Source of the DNA: Candidatus Rokuibacteriota bacterium
GTDB lineage: Bacteria; Methylomirabilota; Methylomirabilia; Rokubacteriales; CSP1-6
Assembly: GCA_030647435.1 (NCBI GenBank)
Contig: JAUSJX010000034.1
Coordinates: 1 to 37,506 of the forward strand
Length of the DNA stretch: 37,506 nt
Reading direction: 5' to 3'
Positions within the stretch are counted from its first letter, which is position 1. Each line of letters begins with the position of its first letter. Shown in pieces: positions 1,910 to 37,390 of this stretch. Below the pieces are notes generated by a model. The model did no database searches. It was not told the DNA's origin and was given only the letters and a program-made list of their open reading frames with translations. The translations under genes and the position numbers were made by a program.

Positions 1910-2719
1910 ATGTTCGATCTTTCGAGATTTTCTCTTGAAGGCAAGGTAGCGATCGTAACGGGCGGTGGCCGAGGTATCGGAAGGGCGATTGCCCAGGGCT
2001 TTGCCAACGCCGGTGCCAAGGTTGCGATTGCCAGCCGTAAGATGAACGACCTTGAAGCTACTGCTGCGGAAATAAAGGCCTTCGGGGGTGAGGCACTACC
2101 TGTCCAGTCGCACCTGGGGAAGATGGAAGAGATCAACAAGATGGTCAGCACCGTGTTGGACAGGTTCGGCAGGATCGATATACTGGCCAATAATGCCGGT
2201 ACCACTCCTGCGATCGGGACCGTGCTGGATTCCGACGAGCGTCTCTGGGACACCATCATAAACCTGAACCTGAAAGGGCTTTACTTTTCCAGCCAGGCTG
2301 TCGCCAGGATCATGAAGAAGCAGGGCGGGGGGAAAATAATAAATATCACCTCCATCGATGGCTTCAAGCCGGAACCTGGAGCGAGTATTTATAGTATTTC
2401 CAAGGCCGGCGTCCGAATGGTAACCAGGGCTTTTGCCGCAGAGCTAGCGCCCTTCAATATTCAGGTGAACGCGATTGCCCCCGGGCCGATCAGCACGAAG
2501 CTGTTAGATTCGCACTGGTTCCATCTTCCGCCGGAAGAGGCCAAAAAGCAGAAAGAAACCATGGCCAACATGACGCCTATGGGACGCATCGGCGAACCCG
2601 ATGAAATAGTCGGAGCCGCGATTTACCTGGCTTCCGACGCCTCCAGCTATACCACCGGCACCGAGATCGTGATTGATGGTGGAGTCTTGCAGGCTTTTGC
2701 TGTACCGGGGACCGACTAA
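1910..2719 (+). CDS. Classical SDR-family dehydrogenase/reductase
   Basis: This 269-residue protein is a classical short-chain dehydrogenase of the 3-oxoacyl reductase/glucose dehydrogenase type, interconverting an alcohol and a ketone with NAD(P). The cofactor motif TGGGRGIG is at residues 17-24, NNAG at 94-97, catalytic Ser148, and Tyr161/Lys165 in YSISK. The C-terminal YTTGTEIVIDGG segment is also typical, and the length is normal. The ATG follows an excellent AAAGGAGG ribosome-binding site, about 8 bases away, so this gene is probably expressed on its own. Codon use is markedly more AT-rich than the main operon, suggesting transfer. The substrate is unknown; a hydroxyacyl-CoA or alcohol would fit the neighbourhood. 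Confidence 0.93.
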   Translation: MFDLSRFSLEGKVAIVTGGGRGIGRAIAQGFANAGAKVAIASRKMNDLEATAAEIKAFGGEALPVQSHLGKMEEINKMVSTVLDRFGRIDILANNAGTTPAIGTVLDSDERLWDTIINLNLKGLYFSSQAVARIMKKQGGGKIINITSIDGFKPEPGASIYSISKAGVRMVTRAFAAELAPFNIQVNAIAPGPISTKLLDSHWFHLPPEEAKKQKETMANMTPMGRIGEPDEIVGAAIYLASDASSYTTGTEIVIDGGVLQAFAVPGTD

Positions 2720-2868
2720 TACGCGGCAATTTTTCCGGTTATCACAGGATATGGGTGACGAAACCCTTCAACCGGGATTTCCGATCTGGACAATCGTGGG
2801 CCGGCATCCGCGCATTCTGTCCATTGTCTGCGACATTGAGCCTCTCTCACCTTGGGATACATCAAACC

Positions 2869-3747
2869 TCAAATTTTCAGCTTCCCTTTAATCCAATCCG
2901 TGACCACCTTCATCACTTCATCGCAAGGCCCAGGGCTCTTATAGACATCAAAATGCATCTTGACTAACGAAGAGGGGATGATCCAAAGATCCTTGGGTTC
3001 TCCAGCCATCTTGCACATAGAAATCGTCTCCTCATAGGGAACCAGCAATTCGGATTCTGTGTGAACAAAGAAGATCGGCCTTGGAGAAATTCTGTTCGCC
3101 ACAGCCTCTGGTCTATAGTTCATTAGACTTTCAGCGGAGCTCAAGGAGATCTCTGTCTTCTTGTGGGTTGAGAGATAGGCCTCTTTCTCTTCCTTACTTA
3201 GGCGCATGACATCCAGCGAATCCCAGTACTTCGACTTCCCGGTTTTCGCGCGTTCTAAGCTGTCTTTTTCGACCTCCTCTTGGAATCTCCTCCATTCCAC
3301 CAGGGTCCTCATGCCCCTGAGCCATCGTGCTCCATCTCCAACTCCAAACATCCCGACCACGTACTTTACTCTTTGGTCCTCTGCTCCCGCGGACACGACA
3401 TGGGAACCGCCTAAACTCAATCCCACCAAACCTACCTTTTCCGCGTCCACCTCATCCCTTTGCAGAAGGTAGGAAGTTGCGCTCTTGATGTCTTCAACTT
3501 GTTCAGAACAGATCAGACGATTCCTATCCCCTTCACTCTCGCCCCAACCCCGGTAGTCAAAGATAAGACAGGCAAAGCCCGCGGCTGTTAGAGGTGGTAC
3601 GACTTGGGCGCTCCGGCCCTCCTTTTCAGAGGTGTATCCTCCGCAGACCACGATGCCGGGAATTTTCCCCCCATTTTTATAATTGGCAGGAAGATAAAGG
3701 TTTGCTCTGATTTTTGCCCCGTCGCTAAAAAAAGTGATCTTTTCCAC
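2869..3747 (-). CDS. Alpha/beta hydrolase (dienelactone hydrolase/esterase-like)
   Basis: This 292-residue cytoplasmic serine hydrolase has no signal peptide. The nucleophile elbow GLSLGG places Ser111 as the nucleophile; DYRGWGESEG (64-73) is the usual strand-and-turn segment before it. His265 in KMHFDVY is the likely catalytic His, and Glu233 in TESELLVP occupies the position where an Asp is more usual. Residues 130-215 form an inserted, charged cap region. Translation starts at GTG 3745-3747 on the minus strand, preceded by AAAGGAGA at a 6-7 base spacing. It converges on the SDR gene and shares its lower GC content. The natural ester, lactone or thioester substrate cannot be predicted. Confidence 0.87.
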   Translation of the reverse strand: MEKITFFSDGAKIRANLYLPANYKNGGKIPGIVVCGGYTSEKEGRSAQVVPPLTAAGFACLIFDYRGWGESEGDRNRLICSEQVEDIKSATSYLLQRDEVDAEKVGLVGLSLGGSHVVSAGAEDQRVKYVVGMFGVGDGARWLRGMRTLVEWRRFQEEVEKDSLERAKTGKSKYWDSLDVMRLSKEEKEAYLSTHKKTEISLSSAESLMNYRPEAVANRISPRPIFFVHTESELLVPYEETISMCKMAGEPKDLWIIPSSLVKMHFDVYKSPGPCDEVMKVVTDWIKGKLKI

Positions 3748-26194: not shown

Positions 26195-27084
26195 TGCCGG
26201 ATCTGCCGGTCGTTTGGCAGGCGCTGGTGAGCGGAATCCTCATGGGCGGCATCTACGCCCTGGTGGCGGCCGGGTTCACCCTGATCTTCGGCGTGCTCAA
26301 GATCATGAACTTCGCGTACGGCGAGTTCGTGATGCTGGGGATGTACGCGACGTTCCTGGCCTACACGCTGGGGGGGGTGGACCCGTACCTGTCGCTGGCC
26401 TTGGTGCTGCCCGCCTTCTTCCTGCTCGGGATCGTGGTCCAGCGCCTGCTGATCGATCGCATTCTCGACGCCCCGGACGACATGCAGATGATCCTCACGT
26501 TCGGGCTCCTGATCCTCATCTCCAATCTCGCCCTCTTCTTCTTCACCTCGGACCTCCAGGGCATCAGGGTCGGGTACCTGGACCGCATCATCACCTTCGG
26601 CGGGACCTTCTTCCGGTCGTCGCTCCTCTATGCCTTCGTCTGGGCGCTCGGCCTGCTCGCTGCGACCTATCTCTTCATCCGGCGGTCGCGGCTGGGGCGC
26701 GCCGTCCGCGCGACGGCCGACGACCGGTTCGCCGCGCGCGTGGTGGGCCTGCCGGTGCGGGCGGTCTTCTGGATCACCTTCGGCCTGGGCTCCGCGATCG
26801 GCGCCGCCTCCGGCAGCATCCTGCTTCCCTATCTGCCGGCCTCCCCCGACCGAGGATTCGAGTTCACGCTCCTGGCGATCATCGTCGTCGTCCTGGGCGG
26901 GATGGGCAGCTTCGTCGGCGCTCTGGTCGGAGGGCTCGCCATCGGGCTGACCCGGTCCCTCGGGCAGGTGTTCATCTCCGCGGTCCTGAGCGACGCGCTG
27001 AGCCTCTTCGTCGTGCTGGTGATCCTGCTGGTCCGGCCGGCCGGACTGTTCGGCGCAAAGGTCGCACGTGATGTCGCGATCTGA
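26194..27084 (+). CDS. livH: Branched-chain amino acid-type ABC transporter permease, LivH family
   Basis: This 296-residue membrane subunit has the LivH pattern GVLKIMNFAYGEFVMLGMYA, the loop RAVRATADDRFAARVVGLPV and VVVLGGMGSFVGALVGGLAI. About eight hydrophobic segments are present. GTG 26194 shares its first base with the stop codon of the receptor gene (TAGTG), indicating coupled translation; a longer frame upstream is only overlap with that gene. It is clearly homologous to the livH at 4249 but diverged. Confidence 0.92.
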   Translation: MPDLPVVWQALVSGILMGGIYALVAAGFTLIFGVLKIMNFAYGEFVMLGMYATFLAYTLGGVDPYLSLALVLPAFFLLGIVVQRLLIDRILDAPDDMQMILTFGLLILISNLALFFFTSDLQGIRVGYLDRIITFGGTFFRSSLLYAFVWALGLLAATYLFIRRSRLGRAVRATADDRFAARVVGLPVRAVFWITFGLGSAIGAASGSILLPYLPASPDRGFEFTLLAIIVVVLGGMGSFVGALVGGLAIGLTRSLGQVFISAVLSDALSLFVVLVILLVRPAGLFGAKVARDVAI

Positions 27085-28120
27085 GCGCGCGGCCCGCCGC
27101 TGGGCCCTGGGAGCGCTGGCGGTGGCGCTCCTGCTGCTCCCGCTCTCCCCGAACGCCTACGTGGTCACCGTGGTCACGCTGGCGGCCATGAGCGCCGCTC
27201 TCGCCAGCGCCTGGAACATCGTGGGGGGCTACGCCGGTCTCCTCTCCGTCGGCGACGCCGCGTACTTCGGCATCGGCGCGTACGTCATGGGTCTCCTCTG
27301 GCTGAAGGCGGGTGTGAGCCCGACCGTCGGGCTCCTGCTCGGAGCGCTGACGAGCATGGTCTTCGGCCTCATCGTGGGAACCCTCGGCTTCAAGTCCGGT
27401 CTGCGCGGCATCTACTTCGCCGTCGCCACCCTGGCGGTGAGCGAGATCGTGCGGATGGTCGCGCTCAGCCTCGACGTCATCGGCGGCAACATGGGGCTGG
27501 AGATTCCGTACGTCTCCTCGCCCCGCCACCTTCTCTTCCGCAGCGAGATTCCCGCCTACTACCTGATCCTCGGGTTCCTCGCGCTGGTCGTCCTGATCTC
27601 CGCCCGGATCCGGCGCTCGCGGCTGGGCTACGTGCTGATGGCCGTGCGCGAGCGGGAGGCGGCGGCCGAGGCCCTGGGCGTGGACACGTTTCGCTGCAAG
27701 ATGACGGCCGTCGCGATCAGCGCCTTCCTGGTCGGGCTCGGGGGCGGCCTCTACGCGCTCTACAGCCACTACCTCAACCCGACCTTCTACTTCTCGCTGG
27801 ACGTCGTGGTGAAGATGATCCTCGGCACGATCCTGGGCGGGAAGGGGACCGTGCTCGGCCCGGTGCTCGGCGCGGCGACGCTCTCGGGGCTGGAAGAAGG
27901 AATCCAGTTCATCCCGCTGGCGACGGCGCGCGCGGCGAGCCTGAGCCGGATCGTCTACGCCGCACTCATCATCGTGGTCGTGCTCTTCATGCCGCGCGGC
28001 ATCGTCGACTTGGCCCGCCGTGGGCGCTGGCGGCGCCCGGTGGCCGCGCTGGACGCCCCCGTCGAGGAGCGCCTAACCGCGCCGGTGCAGCGCACGACCG
28101 ACGAGCACACACTGCGGTAG
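27071..28120 (+). CDS. livM: Branched-chain amino acid-type ABC transporter permease, LivM family
   Basis: This 349-residue permease pairs with the preceding LivH. It has SAWNIVGGYAGLLSVGDAAY, GLRGIYFAVATLAVSEIVRM, the ATPase-contacting RRSRLGYVLMAVREREAAAE and MILGTILGGKGTVLGPVLGA. About nine hydrophobic segments are visible, with a long hydrophilic C-terminal tail (DAPVEERLTAPVQRTTDEHT). ATG 27071 was preferred over GTG 27068, which differs by only one residue. It overlaps the preceding gene by 14 bases and ends ten bases before livF. Confidence 0.92.
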   Translation: MSRSERAARRWALGALAVALLLLPLSPNAYVVTVVTLAAMSAALASAWNIVGGYAGLLSVGDAAYFGIGAYVMGLLWLKAGVSPTVGLLLGALTSMVFGLIVGTLGFKSGLRGIYFAVATLAVSEIVRMVALSLDVIGGNMGLEIPYVSSPRHLLFRSEIPAYYLILGFLALVVLISARIRRSRLGYVLMAVREREAAAEALGVDTFRCKMTAVAISAFLVGLGGGLYALYSHYLNPTFYFSLDVVVKMILGTILGGKGTVLGPVLGAATLSGLEEGIQFIPLATARAASLSRIVYAALIIVVVLFMPRGIVDLARRGRWRRPVAALDAPVEERLTAPVQRTTDEHTLR

Positions 28121-28130
28121 GGAGACACGC

Positions 28131-28835
28131 ATGCTGAAGGTCTCGAACATCGAAGTCGGCTACGGCAACATCCAGGTCTTGTTCGGCGTCTCGTTCGAGG
28201 TGGCCGAGGGCGAGCTGGTCTCCCTCGTCGGGCCCAACGGCGCCGGCAAGACCACCACCGTGCGCGCCATCACGGGGATCGTGCCGCCCTTCAGGGGCCG
28301 CGTGGAATTCCTCGGGCGCGAGATCCAGTCCCTGCCGCCGCACGAAATCGTCCCGCTCGGCCTGGTGCACGTTCCCGAGGGACGCCTGATCTTCCCCTCG
28401 CTCACGGTACAGGAGAACCTCGACCTCGGGGCCTTCCATTCCCCCGCGCGCGCCTTCCGGGAGGAGACGCTGGAGCGCGTCTTCACGCTCTTCCCGGTGC
28501 TCCGGGAGCGGCGACGGCAGAGCGCGGGGACGCTCTCGGGCGGTGAGCAACAGATGCTGGCCATCGGGCGCGGGTTGATGGCGCGGCCGCGGCTCATCAT
28601 CTTCGACGAGCCGTCGCTCGGGCTCGCCCCCATCCTGGTGGAGGAGATCCTGCAGACGATCCAGCAGATCGTCCGCGAGGGCGTCACCGTCCTGCTCATC
28701 GAGGAGAACGTCCAGGAGTCGCTCCGCCTGGCCGATCGGGCCTTTGTCCTGGAGAACGGCCGGGTGGTGCAGTCCGGAAACGGCAAGGAGCTGCTGGGCA
28801 ACGAGCACATCAAACGGGCGTACCTGGGGTTGTGA
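28131..28835 (+). CDS. livF: ABC transporter ATPase, LivF family
   Basis: This 234-residue ATPase has Walker A GPNGAGKT at residues 34-41, signature LSGGEQ at 135-140, Walker B LIIFDEPS around 155-162 and the LivF-type LIEENVQ segment in place of the switch His. HVPEGRLIFPSLTVQENL and KRAYLGL at the end are also LivF hallmarks. The cluster has no LivG, the partner ATPase that normally accompanies LivF. The only LivG-type gene on the contig is at 6101, so the two loci may share ATPases. GGGAGAC precedes ATG 28131. Confidence 0.93.
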   Translation: MLKVSNIEVGYGNIQVLFGVSFEVAEGELVSLVGPNGAGKTTTVRAITGIVPPFRGRVEFLGREIQSLPPHEIVPLGLVHVPEGRLIFPSLTVQENLDLGAFHSPARAFREETLERVFTLFPVLRERRRQSAGTLSGGEQQMLAIGRGLMARPRLIIFDEPSLGLAPILVEEILQTIQQIVREGVTVLLIEENVQESLRLADRAFVLENGRVVQSGNGKELLGNEHIKRAYLGL

Positions 28836-28869: not shown

Positions 28870-28953
28870 ATGCGGCTGAAGGGCAGGATTGCCATCGTCA
28901 CGGGAGGGGGGAGCGGCATCGGCGCCGCCGCCGCCGAGCGGAGCCAGGCATGA
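28870..28953 (+). pseudogene. SDR remnant: only the N-terminal Rossmann motif remains
   Basis: A 27-codon frame starts at ATG 28870 behind GGGAGGAG and reads MRLKGRIAIVTGGGSGIGAA. It keeps the N-terminal strand and TGxxxGIG cofactor loop of a short-chain dehydrogenase, then ends after AERSQA with a stop overlapping the next gene's ATG. Roughly 230 residues are missing, including the catalytic Tyr and Lys. The ribosome-binding site and start are intact, so a short peptide may be made, but the SDR is destroyed. It looks like a deletion between the Gly-rich loop and the region just before the next gene. Confidence 0.75.
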
Positions 28954-29861
28954 CCGAGCAGGTGGAGATCGAACGGCGATCGCTCCTCCTCGACGAGGTG
29001 GAGGCGGGCCGCGGGATCCGCGACGGGATGACGGTGGCCCTCGGCGGCTTCATCACCTCGAGCCACCCGATGGCGTTGGTCCGGCAGATCATCCGCAACG
29101 GCGTCCGCGACCTCACCGTCATCGGCGCGGCGTCGTCCGGCCTGGATGTGGACCTGCTCATCGGCGCCGGCTGCGTGCGCAAGATCATCAGCCCCTACGT
29201 GGGCGCCGAGACGCTGGCGCCGATCGGGCCCTTCTTCCGCGCCGCCGCCGAGCGGGGCGAGATCGAGGTCTGGGAGATCGACGAGGCGCTCTTCTACGTG
29301 GGCCTCCGCGCGGCGGCGCAGCTCCTGCCGTTTCTCCCGTGGCGCGGCCTGGTCGGCACCTCGTACCCGGAGGTGAACCCCGACCTCAAGATCTTCCGGG
29401 ATCCGATAAAGGGGGAGACCCTCATCGCGGTCCCGGCCATCACACCCGACGTGACGCTCATCCACGCCGCCGCCGCCGACGTGTACGGCAACGTGCAGCA
29501 CCACGGCACCGGGTTCGGCGACCGCGCCCTGCACCTGGCTTCCGACCGGACCATCGTCGAGGTGGAGCGCGTGATCCCCAACCAGGAGGTGCGCAAGGAT
29601 CCCCTCAAGACGAGTCTCTGGGAGGTGGATGCGGTGGTCCGCGCGCCCTTCGGCGCCCACCCGTACTCGAGCCCGGGCTTCCACGTCGAGGACCGCGAGC
29701 ACGTCCGCGAGTACGTGGCGGCGGCCCAGGCCTACACCCGCATGGGTGACCACGGGCCCTTCCGCGCCTACCTCGAGCGCTACGTGCTGGAGCCCGCGAC
29801 CCACGCCGACTATCTCGAGCGCGTCGGCATCAAGCGGCTGTTGACCCTCTACGAGTACTGA
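28950..29861 (+). CDS. CoA-transferase family I, subunit A (IpdA/glutaconate CoA-transferase-like)
   Basis: This 303-residue subunit belongs to the glutaconate CoA-transferase/IpdA branch. GMTVALGGFITSSHPMALVR near residues 27-46 and HAAAADVYGNVQHHGTGFGD near 171-190 are characteristic. The partner subunit is encoded 17 bases downstream, as is usual. It would move CoA between acids, or, if it resembles IpdAB from cholesterol ring degradation, hydrolyse a cyclic keto-acyl-CoA. ATG 28950 overlaps the SDR remnant stop (ATGA). Which reaction applies is not resolvable from sequence. Confidence 0.87.
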   Translation: MTEQVEIERRSLLLDEVEAGRGIRDGMTVALGGFITSSHPMALVRQIIRNGVRDLTVIGAASSGLDVDLLIGAGCVRKIISPYVGAETLAPIGPFFRAAAERGEIEVWEIDEALFYVGLRAAAQLLPFLPWRGLVGTSYPEVNPDLKIFRDPIKGETLIAVPAITPDVTLIHAAAADVYGNVQHHGTGFGDRALHLASDRTIVEVERVIPNQEVRKDPLKTSLWEVDAVVRAPFGAHPYSSPGFHVEDREHVREYVAAAQAYTRMGDHGPFRAYLERYVLEPATHADYLERVGIKRLLTLYEY

Positions 29862-29878
29862 GCGGGGAGGCCCATGCG

Positions 29879-30697
29879 ATGAGGAGCACCGACGACGCGA
29901 TCGCGACAGAGTACACCACGCCCGAGCTGGTCGCGGCGTTCATCGCCAACGACCTGGAGGACGGCATCGGCGTGATGGTGGGCGCGAATCTGCCGATTCC
30001 ACGGGCCGGCGTCCTGCTGGCGCATCTCACTCACGGTCCCAACATGCGGGTCACCCTGTCCATGACCCGCACCAACCTGTTCCACGAGCCGGCGATGGAG
30101 CCGTTCGAGTTCAGCACCGACTTCCGGGCGGCCAAGTGGGCGGAGTCCTATTTCATCCACAACCAGCTGATCGACGACATCAAGCGCTCGAGCATGCGCG
30201 ACGTGTTCTTCATCGGCGGGCTGCAGATCGATCGCTACGGCAACGCCAACCTCATCGGCATCGGCGCCGACTACGGGCATCTGAAGATGCGCGGCCCCGG
30301 CGGCGTGGGCACGGGCGACAAGGGCTGCCACTGCAAGCGCTACTACCTGTACATCAACAACCACGACCGGCGGGTGCTCGTCGAGAAGTGCGACTTCGTC
30401 ACGGCCTTCGGCTGGGGCGACGGTGGCGCCGACGCCCGCCGCAAGCTCGGCATCCCGGGCGGCGGCCCCCGCTACTGCATCACGCCCCTCTGCATCTTCG
30501 ATTTCCACGAGGAGACCAAGCACATGCGGATCAAGTCACTGCATCCCGGCGTCACGCTGGAGCAGGTGTTGGACCAGACGGGTTTCGCGCCCATCGTGCC
30601 CGCCCGCATCGAGATCACTCTACCTCCCACCGCGGAGCAGATCCGCATCCTGAGAGAGCGGATCGACCGCGAAGGAATCCTGAGGAGAACGTCATGA
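29879..30697 (+). CDS. CoA-transferase family I, subunit B (IpdB-like)
   Basis: This 272-residue second subunit is preceded by GGGGAGG 8 bases before the ATG. In classical glutaconate CoA-transferases this subunit carries the catalytic Glu within an ExG motif near residue 50; the aligned region here reads VGANLPIPRAG (about 34-44) with no Glu at that place. This is more like IpdB-type proteins. FIGGLQIDRYGNANLIGIG and RGPGGVGTGDKGCHCKRYYL are further recognisable parts. It ends with an ATGA overlap into the citryl-CoA-lyase-like gene. Confidence 0.85.
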   Translation: MRSTDDAIATEYTTPELVAAFIANDLEDGIGVMVGANLPIPRAGVLLAHLTHGPNMRVTLSMTRTNLFHEPAMEPFEFSTDFRAAKWAESYFIHNQLIDDIKRSSMRDVFFIGGLQIDRYGNANLIGIGADYGHLKMRGPGGVGTGDKGCHCKRYYLYINNHDRRVLVEKCDFVTAFGWGDGGADARRKLGIPGGGPRYCITPLCIFDFHEETKHMRIKSLHPGVTLEQVLDQTGFAPIVPARIEITLPPTAEQIRILRERIDREGILRRTS

Positions 30698-31497
30698 GCC
30701 AGACACCGCGCTGGAGCACCCGGATCAGCCATCGCTGGCCGGGCCACTGCATTATTCGGGGTTACTCCCACGCCGACATCATCGAGCGGCTGACCTACGC
30801 CGAGGCCGTCTACCTGACGCTGAAGGGGAAGCTCCCGACCGCGCCCGAGGCGCGGATGCTGGATGCGCTGCTCAACGCCCTCACCGACCACGAGTTCGAG
30901 GCGGTGACCGTCACCGCCGGCCGCCACGTGGTCTCGGGGAACCCCCAGCTCGTGCCGGGCGTGGCGGCCGCCATCCTGGCCGTTGGCTCCCGGACGACCT
31001 CGCCGGCCGATGCCGCCGAGCTGATCAACGACTCTTACGCCCGGATGGCGCGGGAAGGCTGGTCGCTGGCGGAGACGGCCGCGCGCGTCGTGGACGAGTT
31101 CGTGTCCCAGCGTCGCCGCATCCCCGGCTTCGGCCATCCCACCCACAAGAAGGGTGACTACCGGGCGGAGAGCCTCAAGCGGGTGGCCGAGGAGTGCGGG
31201 TTCCTCGGAGAGCGGACGCGCCTCTACCTGGCGATCCACCAGGCGTTCGTGCGGAAGACGGGGAAGGACAACATCCCGATCAACGTCGACGGAATGATGG
31301 CCGCCATCATGAACGAGATGGACCTGCCTCCCATCGCCATGACCGGCATCGCCATCCTCTCGGTGCTGCCCGGCGTCATGGCCCACTGCATCGAGGAGAT
31401 CGAGAACTGGAAGGGGCTGCGCTTCGTCCCCGACGAAGATGCCGAGTACGTGGGAGAGCCCGAGCGGCCGCTCCCGCAGCGCGGGCCGCGCGCCTAG
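30694..31497 (+). CDS. Citrate synthase-fold lyase (citryl-CoA lyase-like)
   Basis: This 267-residue protein has the short citrate synthase fold of citryl-CoA lyases and is much shorter than a citrate synthase. The motif GFGHPTHKKGDYRAE (about 146-160) contains the family's catalytic His and acyl-CoA loop, and INVDGMMAAIMNEMDLPP (about 197-214) holds the catalytic Asp. The usual His in an HGGA segment is replaced by a SRTTSPADAAEL stretch, so activity may differ from citrate synthesis. It probably cleaves or forms a carbon-carbon bond next to a CoA thioester. It follows the CoA-transferase genes with an ATGA overlap. Confidence 0.8.
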   Translation: MSQTPRWSTRISHRWPGHCIIRGYSHADIIERLTYAEAVYLTLKGKLPTAPEARMLDALLNALTDHEFEAVTVTAGRHVVSGNPQLVPGVAAAILAVGSRTTSPADAAELINDSYARMAREGWSLAETAARVVDEFVSQRRRIPGFGHPTHKKGDYRAESLKRVAEECGFLGERTRLYLAIHQAFVRKTGKDNIPINVDGMMAAIMNEMDLPPIAMTGIAILSVLPGVMAHCIEEIENWKGLRFVPDEDAEYVGEPERPLPQRGPRA

Positions 31498-31498
31498 C

Positions 31499-32164
31499 GT
31501 GACGACGCGGGCCGCGGCCGCGGCGGGGCTGATCGAGCCGATCCGCCTGCCCTCGCTTAGCCAGCTCCCGCCGCTCACCCTGGCCGCGATACGGTCGGGG
31601 GCGGCGGGAGTGGCGCGCGGGGGCTACGCCTGGCTCGCCGGTGAGCGCCTGCGCCTACCCCTCCGCGGCGGGGTGCTGCTCCCGCTCGCGATCTTCACCG
31701 CGCCGCACACGGCCAACATCGCGTTGCTCCACCTGGGGATGGCAATGACCTCGGCCGGGCGCGCCACCGTGCTGTTCTTCACGCAGCCGGTCTGGGTGAC
31801 GTTCCTGTCGCCGTGGATGGTTCAGGAGGAGCGACTGACGGGCGGGCGCGTGCTCGGCATCCTGCTCGCGTTCTCGGGGTTCGTCGTCGTGTTTCTCCCG
31901 GAGATCGGCGGGGAGCAGCCGGTCGTCGTCGGCGATCTCCTTTACCTGGCCGTCGGCCACATCGCGTTCGGCTTCGTACTCTGGGGAGCGCTCATTCGCC
32001 GCCACGGACCCGCGGCCGCCTCGACGTTCCTCTTCCTCGTCCCGCTCTTCAGCGTGCTGATCGGCGTCGTGTTCCTCGGTGAGGTCCCCACGGGCCCGCT
32101 GCTGGTGGGCGCCGCCCTCATCGCGGCCGGGATCGTACTCACGAGCCGGGCGCCGGTGGCGTGA
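31499..32164 (+). CDS. EamA/DMT-family transporter, shortened
   Basis: This 221-residue membrane protein matches EamA (drug/metabolite transporter) proteins in LPPLTLAAIRSG, GMAMTSAGRATVLFFTQPVW and a C-terminal LFLVPLFSVLIGVVFLGEVP then LVGAALIAAGIVL. Normal members have about 290 residues and ten membrane helices. Two losses are apparent. The first helix, with its usual WGxNFVxIK segment, is replaced by AAAAAGLIEPIRLPSLSQ. Near the start of the second repeat VVGDLLYLAVGHIAFGFVLW jumps over about 60-70 residues. The frame stays open. Function is doubtful. GTG 31499 is one base after the lyase stop. Confidence 0.7.
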   Translation: MTTRAAAAAGLIEPIRLPSLSQLPPLTLAAIRSGAAGVARGGYAWLAGERLRLPLRGGVLLPLAIFTAPHTANIALLHLGMAMTSAGRATVLFFTQPVWVTFLSPWMVQEERLTGGRVLGILLAFSGFVVVFLPEIGGEQPVVVGDLLYLAVGHIAFGFVLWGALIRRHGPAAASTFLFLVPLFSVLIGVVFLGEVPTGPLLVGAALIAAGIVLTSRAPVA

Positions 32165-32174
32165 GGAGCACCGC

Positions 32175-33209
32175 GTGCCGGACAGCCGCCCGTTCCGCCT
32201 CGACGCGCCCCTGGCCTTCGCCTCGCTGGAAGAGATCCCGGCGCTCGCGCGCCGGCTGGAACGGCTTGGTTTTGAGGGCGCTTGGACCCAGGAGGGTGTG
32301 CACGACCCGTTCCTGCCGCTCGCGGTGGCCGCGCCGACCACGCTCCGGATCACCCTCGGCACCGCGGTCGCGCTGGCGTTTCCCCGGAGCCCGATGGTGA
32401 CCGCGTACATGGCGTGGGACCTCCAGCGTGCGAGCCGCGGCCGGTTCATCCTGGGTCTGGGGACGCAGGTCCGCGGTCACATCGAGCGCAGGTTCAGCGC
32501 GGCCTGGAGCTCCCCGGGGCCGCGGCTCCGGGAAGGGGTCCTCGCCCTCCGCGCCATCTGGGAGTGCTGGCAGCACAGGACGCCGCTGGATTTCCGGGGC
32601 GAATACTACGGCTTCACGCTGATGCCGCCGGCCTTCGTCCCGGACCCGTTGCCATGGTTCCCCATTCCCGTCTACCTGGCCGGTGTCAACGCGTACAACT
32701 GCCGGCTCGCTGGTGAGGTCGCAGACGGGCTCCACGTCCATCCGTTCCACACGGCCCCGTACCTTCGCGACGTCATCACGCCGCAGGTGGAAGAGGGTCT
32801 CCGGCGTTCCGGTCGCGGCCGAGGGAGCTTCACGGTGGCCGTGACGGCGTTCGTCGCCGCCGGAGCTACGGCGCGTGCCGTGGCGCGACAGCGCGAGGAC
32901 GTCCGGGCGCAGGTCGCCTTCTATGCCTCGACACGCACGTATCGCCCGGTCATGGACCTGCATGGCTGGGGAGACGCGGCCGAGCGTTTGCGGAAGCTGT
33001 CGCTCGAGGGCTCGTGGGAGGCGATGCCCCACGAGATCACCGACGCCATGGTGGAGGAAATGGCGATCGTCGGCCGCGAGGAGGAGGTGGTCCCTCGCCT
33101 GGCCGCCCGGTACGGTGGGCTCGCCGATCGGATCGTTCCGTACCCGATCGGCACCCGGGGGGACCGCGAGCGACTCCTGCGTTTGCTGGCACGGGAGATG
33201 GCGGCGTGA
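32175..33209 (+). CDS. LLM-class F420-type oxidoreductase
   Basis: This 344-residue luciferase-like TIM-barrel protein would use coenzyme F420 or FMN to oxidise or reduce an organic substrate. LERLGFEGAWTQEGVHDPFL (about 29-48), ASRGRFILGLGTQVRGHIER (about 90-109) and FPIPVYLAGVNAYNCRLAGE (about 160-179) are typical of the TIGR03617-like subgroup as I recall it. GAGGAGC lies 5 bases before GTG 32175. The stop overlaps the TetR start in GTGA. Cofactor choice cannot be settled without knowing whether the host makes F420. Confidence 0.85.
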   Translation: MPDSRPFRLDAPLAFASLEEIPALARRLERLGFEGAWTQEGVHDPFLPLAVAAPTTLRITLGTAVALAFPRSPMVTAYMAWDLQRASRGRFILGLGTQVRGHIERRFSAAWSSPGPRLREGVLALRAIWECWQHRTPLDFRGEYYGFTLMPPAFVPDPLPWFPIPVYLAGVNAYNCRLAGEVADGLHVHPFHTAPYLRDVITPQVEEGLRRSGRGRGSFTVAVTAFVAAGATARAVARQREDVRAQVAFYASTRTYRPVMDLHGWGDAAERLRKLSLEGSWEAMPHEITDAMVEEMAIVGREEEVVPRLAARYGGLADRIVPYPIGTRGDRERLLRLLAREMAA

Positions 33210-34498
33210 GCACCCGGCTCCAGCGGACCCGGCACCTCAGGAGCAAGATCCTGTGGGCGGCGGCCGAAATGTTCCGCAAGAAGGGATACCACGAGAGCTT
33301 GGTCGCCGACATCGCCCGAGAGCTGGGGATGGCGAAGCCGACGCTCTATCACTACTTCAAGAGCAAGCAGGAGCTGCTGTTCGAGTCGCACCTGCTGGCC
33401 GCTGCCACGGTGGTGGAAGACCTGCGCGAGATCAGGCAGCGGCCGGAGAGCGCCGAGGTCCGGCTCCGGCAAGCCATCATCTCCTTCATGGTGGCCGTCG
33501 TCGAGAAGGTCCCGCTCTCCTCGGTCCTCGTCTTCCAGAACAGCATCCTCTCTCCGGCCCAGCGCAAGAAGATCGTCGAACGCCGCGACGAGGCGGATCA
33601 GATCTTCCGGAGCATCATCTCCGACGGGATCGCCGCCGGCGACTTCGTGGCGATAGACGCGAAGATCGTCTCGCTGATCATCATCGGAGCCATGAACTGG
33701 CTGCCTCACTGGTATTCGCGCAGCGGCCCCCTGTCAGTTCACGAATTAGGCCATCGCTTCGCAGACTATCTTATCCGCGGCCTCGCCGGCTCGCAAGACA
33801 CACGAGCTCATATGGCTGCGGCCGGAATCGATGACGAAAATGCAATTCTCGCTCTCACCGTGGCAGTGCTCGGAGTGGGAAGTACTCTTGGCCAGGCAGT
33901 GGCGCTCAGCCTTGCGCGAGGGGGTAGCCGGATTGTGGCAATGGATCGGCGCGAAGCCTCGGCTCGGCAGGTGGCAGAAGCGATCCAAGAGATCGGCGGC
34001 GAGGCGGTCGGCTACGGTGCCATCCTGAGCGATGCGGAGCAATGGGAACCGATTCTAGGAGAAGCCGCGGCACAGTTCAAACATCTCGATGCCCTTGTGT
34101 ATGTCCACGACCTGTCGGAGGCTTCCGAGACGCCGGCAAATGGAAAGGATTCAGTGTTTCCACTTTACGCCCCGACGGCGGACATGACAGCTGTCGCCCG
34201 TGCAGCGCGGCATGTGTTTGGGAAGGAAGGGCGGGGAAACGTGCTGTTCGTGGTGAGAGCAGTAGTGCCCGGCAGACCGGAGGCGGATTTAGAGTGGTTT
34301 TCAGAATTCACACGCGCTTTGGCGCGCGATCTGGCGTCGAGCGGCGTTCGCGCGAATGCCGTTCTTGTGAAGACTGGGGGTGGAGACCGCGACGCCGGAT
34401 CGCTCCGGGACATGTTAGCCGCAGTACGCTTGCTCCTGAGTAGTGGCGGTCCGTGGCTTACTGGACAGGTTATCCGCCTCTCGGACGTGGCGGTGTGA
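33206..34498 (+). CDS. TetR-family regulator fused to a degenerate SDR domain
   Basis: This 430-residue protein joins two folds in one frame. Residues 1-195 are a TetR regulator: a DNA-binding helix-turn-helix at about 31-52 (LVADIARELGMAKPTLYHYF) and a ligand domain ending RFADYLIRGLAG. Residues 215-430 resemble an SDR: AVLGVGSTLGQAVALSLARG (from 220), a DRRE after strand two, and a VRANAVLVKTG segment near 381-391. The NNAG motif and the catalytic Tyr-xxx-Lys are not present, so it may bind a nucleotide or CoA ligand without catalysis. ATG 33812 (Met203) could start a separate SDR, but no good ribosome-binding site precedes it. Base composition drops from about 33735. It could be a real ligand-sensing fusion or a fusion at a recombination point. 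Confidence 0.8.
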   Translation: MSTRLQRTRHLRSKILWAAAEMFRKKGYHESLVADIARELGMAKPTLYHYFKSKQELLFESHLLAAATVVEDLREIRQRPESAEVRLRQAIISFMVAVVEKVPLSSVLVFQNSILSPAQRKKIVERRDEADQIFRSIISDGIAAGDFVAIDAKIVSLIIIGAMNWLPHWYSRSGPLSVHELGHRFADYLIRGLAGSQDTRAHMAAAGIDDENAILALTVAVLGVGSTLGQAVALSLARGGSRIVAMDRREASARQVAEAIQEIGGEAVGYGAILSDAEQWEPILGEAAAQFKHLDALVYVHDLSEASETPANGKDSVFPLYAPTADMTAVARAARHVFGKEGRGNVLFVVRAVVPGRPEADLEWFSEFTRALARDLASSGVRANAVLVKTGGGDRDAGSLRDMLAAVRLLLSSGGPWLTGQVIRLSDVAV

Positions 34499-34656: not shown

Positions 34657-35532
34657 ATGAAATTTGGTCTCCATCTCCCGCACATCGGGCAGTTTGCGAC
34701 CCGAGACGACGTGCTCGCTGCGGCTCAATTGCTCGACCAGGAGGGGTTCGACTCGGTGTGGGTTGCCGACCATGTCGCCATGCCGGTGCATTCCGAGAGT
34801 GTCTATCCGTATCGGGCGGACGGCTTCCCGTTCCCCAAGGACGCCCCGTGGCTCGAGGCCATCACGACAGCGGCTTTCGTGGCCGGTGTCACGTCGCGCG
34901 TTCAACTCGGCTTCAGCGTCCTGGTCCTTCCGATGCGGCACCCGGTGCTGACAGCGAAGATGCTGGCCACCTTGGACCATCTCTCCAACGGGCGCGTTGT
35001 GGTCGGACTGGGCGTGGGTTGGTGGCGCGAAGAGTTCGCGGCGTTAGGCGTCCCGTTCGCGGAGCGCGGCCGCCGCTGCGATGAAGCGATAGAAGTACTG
35101 CGTGGCCTCTGGCGGGAAAAAGAGTTCAGTTATAAGGGCCGGTTTTATGAGCTCGAGGCGGTCTACTGCGAACCTAAGCCCATCCGGCGATCGATCCCGC
35201 TCTGGATCGGGGGCGGCGAGGCGGGCTTCGAGCGCATAGTCCGCTTGGGGGACGGCTGGCACGCCGTCGGAGGCGACGTTGAGAAGATCGCGGCGGGCTG
35301 GGCGAATATCGTTCGCCGCGCCGAAAAGGCTGGTCGCGATCCAGCGAGTCTCGAGCTCACGGTAAGCACGGGGTTGCCGTCCGACCGCGGGCGGACGATT
35401 TCCCGCTTTCGCGCACTTCGGAAGGCCGGAGTGAGTCATGTTGTGTTGAACACGCGGCAATTGCCCTTCCCGCAGCTTCGGGAGGTCGTGGAGCGCTTCG
35501 CCCGGGATTGGAGACCGGAGATCGAGGGATAA
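34657..35532 (+). CDS. LLM-class F420-type oxidoreductase
   Basis: This 291-residue luciferase-like oxidoreductase starts MKFGLHLPHIGQFATRDDVL and contains EGFDSVWVADHVAMP, TSRVQLGFSVLVLPMRHPVL, HLSNGRVVVGLGVGWWREEF and IPLWIGGGEAGFERIVRLGD. These are standard for TIGR03619-like F420-dependent enzymes. GGAGG precedes ATG 34657. Its GC content is lower than the main operon. It is only distantly related to the LLM protein at 32175. The reaction is unknown. Confidence 0.88.
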   Translation: MKFGLHLPHIGQFATRDDVLAAAQLLDQEGFDSVWVADHVAMPVHSESVYPYRADGFPFPKDAPWLEAITTAAFVAGVTSRVQLGFSVLVLPMRHPVLTAKMLATLDHLSNGRVVVGLGVGWWREEFAALGVPFAERGRRCDEAIEVLRGLWREKEFSYKGRFYELEAVYCEPKPIRRSIPLWIGGGEAGFERIVRLGDGWHAVGGDVEKIAAGWANIVRRAEKAGRDPASLELTVSTGLPSDRGRTISRFRALRKAGVSHVVLNTRQLPFPQLREVVERFARDWRPEIEG

Positions 35533-35700
35533 CGGAGCCTGGGCAGGTGAGCCGCCTGCCGTGGCTCGCAGAGGAGAGGGCGGCTGAACGCCCAGCCCAC
35601 GCGCTGGCAGGTGCGATTTCTCTTACGGGTTGATTTGAGCTTGACAGCCGCCGTGTGCGACGGCAGCGTGGAACTCCCAATGTTCACCGGAGGACCAGCC

Positions 35701-36327
35701 ATGGCGACCGCTACTGCGACGAAGACCAAATGGACCCTCAAGGGTCGGGGGTACGAGTTCTGCAACTGTGACTTCGGCTGCGGCTGCGTCTTCGGTGGAT
35801 TCCCCAATTCCAAGGACGGCAGCTGTCGTGCCTTGATCGGCTTCGACATCAGTAGAGGCAAGTGCGGCCACGTGGAGCTTTCCGGCGTGAAGTGGGCCGG
35901 CATTTATGACTGGCCGAAGGCGATTCACCAGGGCAACGGCAAGGTTGCCTTCGTAGTGGACCAGGCGGCCACCGACGCGCAGGTCGAGGCGCTCGGACAG
36001 ATCTTCACGGGTGCGCTCGGCGGGATGCCGTGGGAGGTCCTGGGGCCGACGGCCGCGGTCGCAGGGCTGGTGAAGGCCAAGATCACCATCGAGGGGAGCG
36101 GACAGAAGAGCACCTTCCGCGCGGAGGGCATCGGGGAGGGGCGCGGCGAGGCGTTCAAGAATCCCGTGACCGGTAAGGACCACTTCGCGCAGGTGCATCT
36201 GCCGACCGGCTTCATCTGGAAGAAGGGCGAATGCGGGGAAGGGACCTTCCGCGCCGCCGCGGCCGGTGTGTCGGTTGCCGCCGAGAAGACCAACTGGATC
36301 CTCTACGAGTTCGACTGGGCCAACTGA
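35701..36327 (+). CDS. DUF1326 protein
   Basis: This 208-residue protein of unknown function has the DUF1326 features: GRGYEFCNCDFGCGCVFGGF near the N-terminus, with four Cys that could bind a metal, and a WKKGECGEGTFRA region near the end. No signal peptide is seen. GGAGG lies before ATG 35701 (ACCGGAGGACCAGCC). It pairs with the DUF2182 membrane protein encoded six bases downstream, an arrangement I know from many genomes. Role unproven; copper or other metal handling is often suspected. The 167 bases upstream contain a TTGACA but no convincing promoter. Confidence 0.85.
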   Translation: MATATATKTKWTLKGRGYEFCNCDFGCGCVFGGFPNSKDGSCRALIGFDISRGKCGHVELSGVKWAGIYDWPKAIHQGNGKVAFVVDQAATDAQVEALGQIFTGALGGMPWEVLGPTAAVAGLVKAKITIEGSGQKSTFRAEGIGEGRGEAFKNPVTGKDHFAQVHLPTGFIWKKGECGEGTFRAAAAGVSVAAEKTNWILYEFDWAN

Positions 36328-36332
36328 GCGGC

Positions 36333-37112
36333 GTGCCGGCGCTCGACAGCCTGCTCCGGCGCGACCGTGCGATCGTCGGCGCCGGCCTCCTGGCGACCGC
36401 CCTCGTGGTGTGGCTCTACCTCTTCCGTCTTTCGATGTCGATGCCGGGCATGGACATGGCCGAGATGCCGGGGATGGCGATGCCGCGGGACCACGCCTGG
36501 GACCCCGTCGACGTGCTTCTGCTCTTCGTCATGTGGGCGGTCATGATGATCGCGATGATGGTGCCAGCGGACGCGCCGATGATCCTGACGTTCGCCATGG
36601 TGCAGCGGACGCGCCGAGAACAGGACCGGGCGGCCATCCCGACCGTCGTGTTTCTCCTCGGCTACGCGGCGGTGTGGACGGCCTACGCCACCGTGGCGGC
36701 GCTCGCGCAATGGCGACTGCACGAGGCCGGCTTCCTCTCCGCTGCCATGGCGAGCACGAGCGCGTGGCTGGGCAGCGCGTTGCTCCTCGTCGCGGGCGTG
36801 TTCCAGTGGACGCCGCTCAAGCAGGCCTGCCTCGCCAAGTGCCGCTCGCCTCTTTCCTTCGTGATGACTGAGTGGCGCGACGGGCGCGCCGGCGCCTTCG
36901 TGATGGGGATGCGACACGGCGCCTACTGCGTGGCGTGCTGCTGGGCGCTGATGGCGCTGCTCTTCGTCGCCGGCGTGATGAACTTGTTATGGGTCGCCGG
37001 TCTCGCGGTCTTCGTTCTCGCCGAGCGCGTGCTGCCGGGCGGCCTGGTCGTCGGTCGTATCGCCGGTGCGCTGTTGCTCGTGGCCGGTGTGGTCATCCTC
37101 GTCCGAGGTTAG
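36333..37112 (+). CDS. DUF2182 integral membrane protein
   Basis: This 259-residue protein has about seven hydrophobic segments. After the first helix an outward loop reads SMSMPGMDMAEMPGMAMPRD, unusually rich in Met, followed by WAVMMIAMMVPADAPMI, a DUF2182 hallmark. QWTPLKQACLAKCRSPL and GMRHGAYCVACCWALM are the conserved Cys-containing segments of the family. The Met-rich loop and the cysteines suggest metal (possibly copper) binding, which is inference. GTG 36333 lies five bases after the DUF1326 stop, so the two are likely translated together. Confidence 0.85.
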   Translation: MPALDSLLRRDRAIVGAGLLATALVVWLYLFRLSMSMPGMDMAEMPGMAMPRDHAWDPVDVLLLFVMWAVMMIAMMVPADAPMILTFAMVQRTRREQDRAAIPTVVFLLGYAAVWTAYATVAALAQWRLHEAGFLSAAMASTSAWLGSALLLVAGVFQWTPLKQACLAKCRSPLSFVMTEWRDGRAGAFVMGMRHGAYCVACCWALMALLFVAGVMNLLWVAGLAVFVLAERVLPGGLVVGRIAGALLLVAGVVILVRG

Positions 37113-37122
37113 CGCGGCGGCC

Positions 37123-37390
37123 GGTGCGGTGGTCCCGTTGATTAGGCTGCTTGTCGACCTCGCGTCCCGCTTCCACGGCGTGGACTACTGGGAAAGCGGG
37201 CGGACACTGGCGAAGATGGGGCTGGCGGGACGGCTGGGCGCCGACATCGTCCGACGATGCCGCGGCGTGGGAGAGGCCGCGGCTGCCGTGCGGGATCCGC
37301 GGCTGGCTCGACGACGCGTACGAGCCGGGCCGCATGACGAGGACCGTGTACGACGCGGTGGCGCACGCCATGCGACTCGACGGTTCATAA
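37123..37390 (+). pseudogene. Broken opine-dehydrogenase-like C-terminal fragment
   Basis: The frame read from about 37129 gives VVPLIRLLVDLASRFHGVDY then WESGRTLAKMGLAG, which resembles the C-terminal helical domain of octopine/nopaline dehydrogenase-type proteins (xDYWxxGRTLExLGLAGL). Soon after, by about 37225, the more natural coding signal moves to another frame: GWLDDAYEPGRMTRTVYDAV then AHAMRLDGS and stop TAA at 37388-37390, for which I cannot name a family. No full gene is possible in the 280 bases after the DUF2182 stop. The second segment may be the end of another gene joined by deletion. Its stop overlaps the ribosome-binding site of the acyl-CoA dehydrogenase across the circle junction. 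Confidence 0.45.

Follow-up and report, generated by a model that had tools for sequence, protein, structure and literature searches.

The window analysed here is the whole of a 37,506-nucleotide contig (JAUSJX010000034.1) from a Candidatus Rokuibacteriota genome, and its right-hand part carries a run of genes on the forward strand. Transporter-type genes (27068-28835, read from the sequence) are followed by two CoA-transferase subunits (28950-30697), a putative citrate-synthase/citryl-CoA-lyase-like ORF (30694-31497, likewise read from the sequence), an EamA transporter ORF assigned by Pfam (31439-32164), and an F420-type LLM oxidoreductase (32151-33209; TIGR03617). The last of these overlaps the start of a TetR-SDR fusion ORF (33206-34498), whose GTG start shares the letters GTGA with the stop of the LLM gene. 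With the transporter, CoA-transferase, lyase-like, EamA and LLM genes all upstream on the same strand, the TetR gene appears to close a catabolic operon. At about 240 aa the EamA ORF is short, and its best-matching stretch corresponds to the second half of the profile alone, so the gene may be truncated or have lost an internal part. Downstream of the fusion lies a second LLM oxidoreductase on the forward strand (34657-35532; TIGR03619), whose GC3 of 0.76-0.77 falls below the 0.89-0.99 of those Rokubacterial relatives that were measured, and beyond it a segment (35622-37129) containing a DUF1326 gene and a PpoB2 ‘copper chaperone’ (PF09948) gene. Near the other end of the window, a low-GC3 patch (1910-3747) encodes an intact SDR on the forward strand (GC3 0.65) and an alpha/beta hydrolase on the reverse strand (GC3 0.56) that resembles UilS-type lactonases at a score far under the family cut-off.

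The fusion ORF opens with the GTG at 33206 and stays open on the forward strand for 430 codons, with no stop before the TGA at 34496-34498. Along the 430-aa protein, Pfam places TetR_N (residues 15-60, 59.8 bits), TetR_C_24 (82-193, 98.3 bits), and then adh_short and adh_short_C2 from residue 218 (50.4 and 38.6 bits), in that order; both the TetR and the SDR scores greatly exceed chance. The sequence-only reading had described a complete TetR repressor continuing in frame into an SDR domain, and the stop-free frame and the Pfam domains bear this out. At the DNA level, the TetR body, comprising the HTH and most of the ligand-binding domain, occupies 33206-33733 (Pfam; native-like GC3 of 0.92). 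The last TetR helix, ELGHRFADYLIRGLAG, is encoded by 33734-33790, as placed by alignment with family TetRs and by the structure model, and falls on the low-GC3 side. It is followed by a linker (33791-33855) and a degenerate SDR/Rossmann domain (33857-34495), delimited by Pfam, alignment and a structure model with seven predicted strands. The boundary between the TetR and SDR domains is at about 33790-33812, and the internal ATG of the linker, at 33812, could be a former separate start.

The TetR half is assigned by its sequence to the TetR_C_24 group and is PfmR/FadR-like. Its TetR_C_24 match spans positions 3-114 of the 114-position profile, nearly the whole domain, and both an HTH and a full ligand-binding domain are recovered by Pfam, alignment and model. 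In the predicted structure, residues 178-194 form the last TetR helix. Within the alignment of related TetRs, the conserved block GAMNW.P.WY.P.G includes four invariant residues (W165, W169, Y170 and G174). The closest solved TetR is PDB 3vpr (E 2.4e-26), which we take for the T. thermophilus protein PfmR. As a TetR-family regulator, PfmR acts on the metabolism of phenylacetic acid and fatty acids (PMC7022988). In a model of the full-length protein the TetR half is good and the SDR half poor, the latter because that alignment had no SDR rows.

When the SDR half is modelled alone with an alignment of 22 SDRs, all seven strands appear in the prediction with a mean pLDDT of 79, and the model matches SDR structures with Z up to 26.6, although an input of true SDRs biases it toward the SDR fold. 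The domain is therefore predicted to keep the whole Rossmann fold, while its alignment with SDRs reveals extensive loss of functional residues. The TGxxxGIG motif reads LGVGSTLG, without the second Gly, and NNAG reads YVHD. In the catalytic columns, Asn is replaced by Tyr (weakly aligned), Ser by Ala, and Tyr by Phe, and the Lys column falls inside a 7-residue deletion. These changes agree with the earlier observation that NNAG and the Tyr-xxx-Lys pair are missing. The Asp after beta-3 has become Ile, the PG motif is also lost, the substrate loop is cut short, and helix F is shortened. The best NCBIfam HMM scores the SDR half at 52 bits, compared with 270 for the intact SDR at 1910-2719 of the same window. 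With all four of Asn-Ser-Tyr-Lys gone, the SDR half is, judging from the alignment, catalytically dead, and the cofactor contacts it keeps are confined to two glycines of the motif and the Asp that follows beta-2.

A rival explanation is a working one-component sensor, in which the degenerate SDR would bind a dinucleotide or acyl-CoA and tune DNA binding by the TetR half in a Rex/NmrA-like manner. The predicted fold and the retained glycines and Asp are in line with this idea, as is the precedent of NmrA, a non-enzymatic SDR-like regulator with a preference for NAD+/NADP+ and a possible role in sensing redox state (PMC5122588). Against it stand the loss of the second Gly of the glycine motif, the Asp after beta-3, NNAG, the Lys and the PG motif, as well as the advantage that the true-SDR alignment gives to the fold model. 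A redox sensor is possible but unsupported, because key NAD(P)-binding residues are missing.

The same architecture was sought in about 500 genomes with full-length and partial queries. No second TetR-SDR fusion was found in any of the 95 genomes of the phylum in the collection or in 388 genomes of 297 genera, and 113 genomes of another class gave matches to the TetR half only, with no fusion. Searches of plasmids by tblastn returned TetR and SDR matches apart from each other, and no match reached 80% coverage. A whole-protein pattern scan of GTDB contigs, whose reach is limited to close relatives, matched 24 stretches, none of them a relative. Among the loci examined, no other ORF had both TetR and SDR domains, and the literature searched contained nothing relevant on TetR-SDR fusions. 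The separate halves do have relatives in the searched genomes, with TetR matches of up to about 40% identity and SDR matches of about 31%. Within this limited reach the domain order is not conserved in relatives, and the sensor loses a further argument. The sequence-only reading had itself named the lack of a homologue with the same fusion, together with read evidence of a join or lost stop, as evidence against its proposal, and the first of the two is the outcome across the genomes, plasmids and GTDB contigs reached.

A compositional seam divides the gene. In a single-step test, the first 176 codons have a GC3 of 0.92 and the remaining ones of 0.61, with a log-likelihood ratio of 29.9 compared with a maximum of 8.8 in 2000 shuffles. 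The best position on the forward strand is 33734, and positions from 33680 to 33740, which lie within the conserved block GAMNWLPHWYSRSG or directly past it, fit about as well. A step at the domain boundary fits worse (22.7 at 33791 and 17.7 at 33812, versus 29.5 at the best position), making a seam exactly at that boundary less likely. Over the TetR tail and linker (codons 177-202), G or C already occupies only 13/26 third positions (P about 2e-8 under 0.92). Among the other TetR and SDR homologues of this genome, GC3 has a median of 0.91 and a minimum of 0.76. The sequence-only reading had envisaged a chimeric join or lost stop near 33790; a compositional step does exist, but its best position is about 33734, inside the TetR. 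To the right of the seam, GC1 is 0.73 and GC2 is 0.50, and the DNA there looks like coding sequence from a less GC-rich source rather than the product of random decay. Simple decay of an SDR pseudogene was considered and rejected, as GC1 stays high (0.73), above GC3.

The position of the seam also bears on whether a TetR gene simply lost its stop beside a neighbouring SDR gene in this lineage. SDR genes do occur near TetR_C_24-group TetR genes in several relatives, and the ATG at 33812 could be the old start. However, of seven other loci that carry both genes, six have a divergent SDR, and the remaining one has its SDR on the same strand at a distance of more than 800 bases. In addition, the seam precedes the end of the TetR and is not at the domain boundary. 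We consider this explanation very improbable. The seam likewise counts against the sensor. With the architecture unconserved, a sharp seam inside the TetR and most classical cofactor contacts lost, the proposal of the sequence-only reading that the SDR part senses redox state or a substrate is not supported, and a working sensor of this kind is unlikely.

One foreign composition runs through the last TetR helix, the linker and the SDR, so the TetR body to the left and the part to the right have different histories. As the seam lies inside the TetR, the incoming DNA probably contained a TetR tail already fused to the SDR. The seam sits in and directly past the best conserved block of the TetR group, GAMNW.P.WY.P.G, the place at which two TetR genes would most readily recombine or be mis-joined. 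Our leading explanation, to which we give about an even chance, is a real but unique recombinant gene produced by horizontal import. Incoming DNA with a TetR tail joined to an SDR would have recombined at the most conserved block of a native TetR gene with the frame preserved. The intact ORF, the complete TetR including its last helix, the GC3 step, the lost catalytic and cofactor residues and the absence of a homologous fusion all speak for such an event. No donor with the fusion was found in the searched collections, and the direction and origin of a transfer are therefore guesses. A donor hunt with the downstream LLM oxidoreductase gave Rokubacterial best matches of up to 49%, and none outside the family at the cut-off used; the named matches of the neighbouring LLM gene place the genome in Candidatus Rokuibacteriota or near it. 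In a recombinant of this kind, the TetR half would presumably work as usual, dimerizing, binding its operator and repressing locally, and by analogy with PfmR-type relatives an acyl-CoA-type ligand may release it from DNA. Given the loss of catalytic and most dinucleotide-binding residues, the SDR half is most simply a folded passenger that would at most influence dimer stability or solubility. In a donor that already carried the fusion, the SDR tail might have had a function.

The same seam could have been made by assembly, if a TetR gene was mis-joined in the metagenome to a foreign TetR tail and SDR and the protein is absent from the cell. In addition to the sharp step at a conserved block and the lack of a homologous fusion, the state of the assembly favours this explanation. 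The draft genome consists of 176 contigs. The 141 bases at the two ends of this contig (1-141 and 37366-37506) are identical, and k-mer overlap reveals the same 141 bases at the end of another contig of the genome (C58). The contig is either a circle, an assembly-graph loop or a stretch flanked by a repeat, and because its ends are shared with C58 the graph is ambiguous here. On the other side, the genome has no second copy of the seam sequence, only chance-level short matches. The frame stays open for 254 codons past the seam and the last TetR helix is completed correctly; any mis-join partner would therefore itself have had to supply a TetR tail in frame. The far right of the contig (35622-37129) is 90% identical in DNA to a genome of the same genus and 87% to one of another genus of the family, exceeding the identity of the other window parts tested, and this end is thus at home in the group. 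Natural recombination and an assembly chimera look alike from sequence alone; we regard the chimera as possible, at well short of an even chance.

The fusion is best seen as a probable one-off splice or assembly join, rather than a demonstrated new type of redox sensor. It is distinctly unlikely, on our estimate, that an unsampled lineage has a true TetR-SDR fusion in which the dead SDR would be a dinucleotide or acyl-CoA sensor, acquired here by recombination. If confirmed by reads and found elsewhere, the protein would represent a TetR regulator that contains a dead dehydrogenase as a module, uniting two sensor ideas, the TetR ligand pocket and the Rossmann domain, in one polypeptide. For now it mainly illustrates how ‘novel architectures’ in metagenome-assembled genomes can be recognised as imported or mis-joined from a compositional seam within a gene.

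Each half of the fusion has familiar counterparts. PfmR/FadR-type TetRs share its N-terminal HTH, complete TetR_C_24 domain and acyl-CoA-type operon setting, whereas the fusion adds about 215 C-terminal residues and encodes its last TetR helix on foreign-looking DNA. Classical SDRs such as FabG, acetoin reductase and glucose 1-dehydrogenase share the Rossmann fold and about 20-31% of the sequence; in contrast to the SDR half, they possess the catalytic tetrad, NNAG, and a full helix F and substrate loop. NmrA-like dead SDR regulators resemble the fusion in general features, namely an SDR fold without catalysis in a regulatory setting, and NmrA has no TetR half. Rex redox repressors similarly combine an HTH and a Rossmann domain in one polypeptide, again a general likeness; the HTH of Rex is a winged helix, and its Rossmann domain is of another, cofactor-binding kind.
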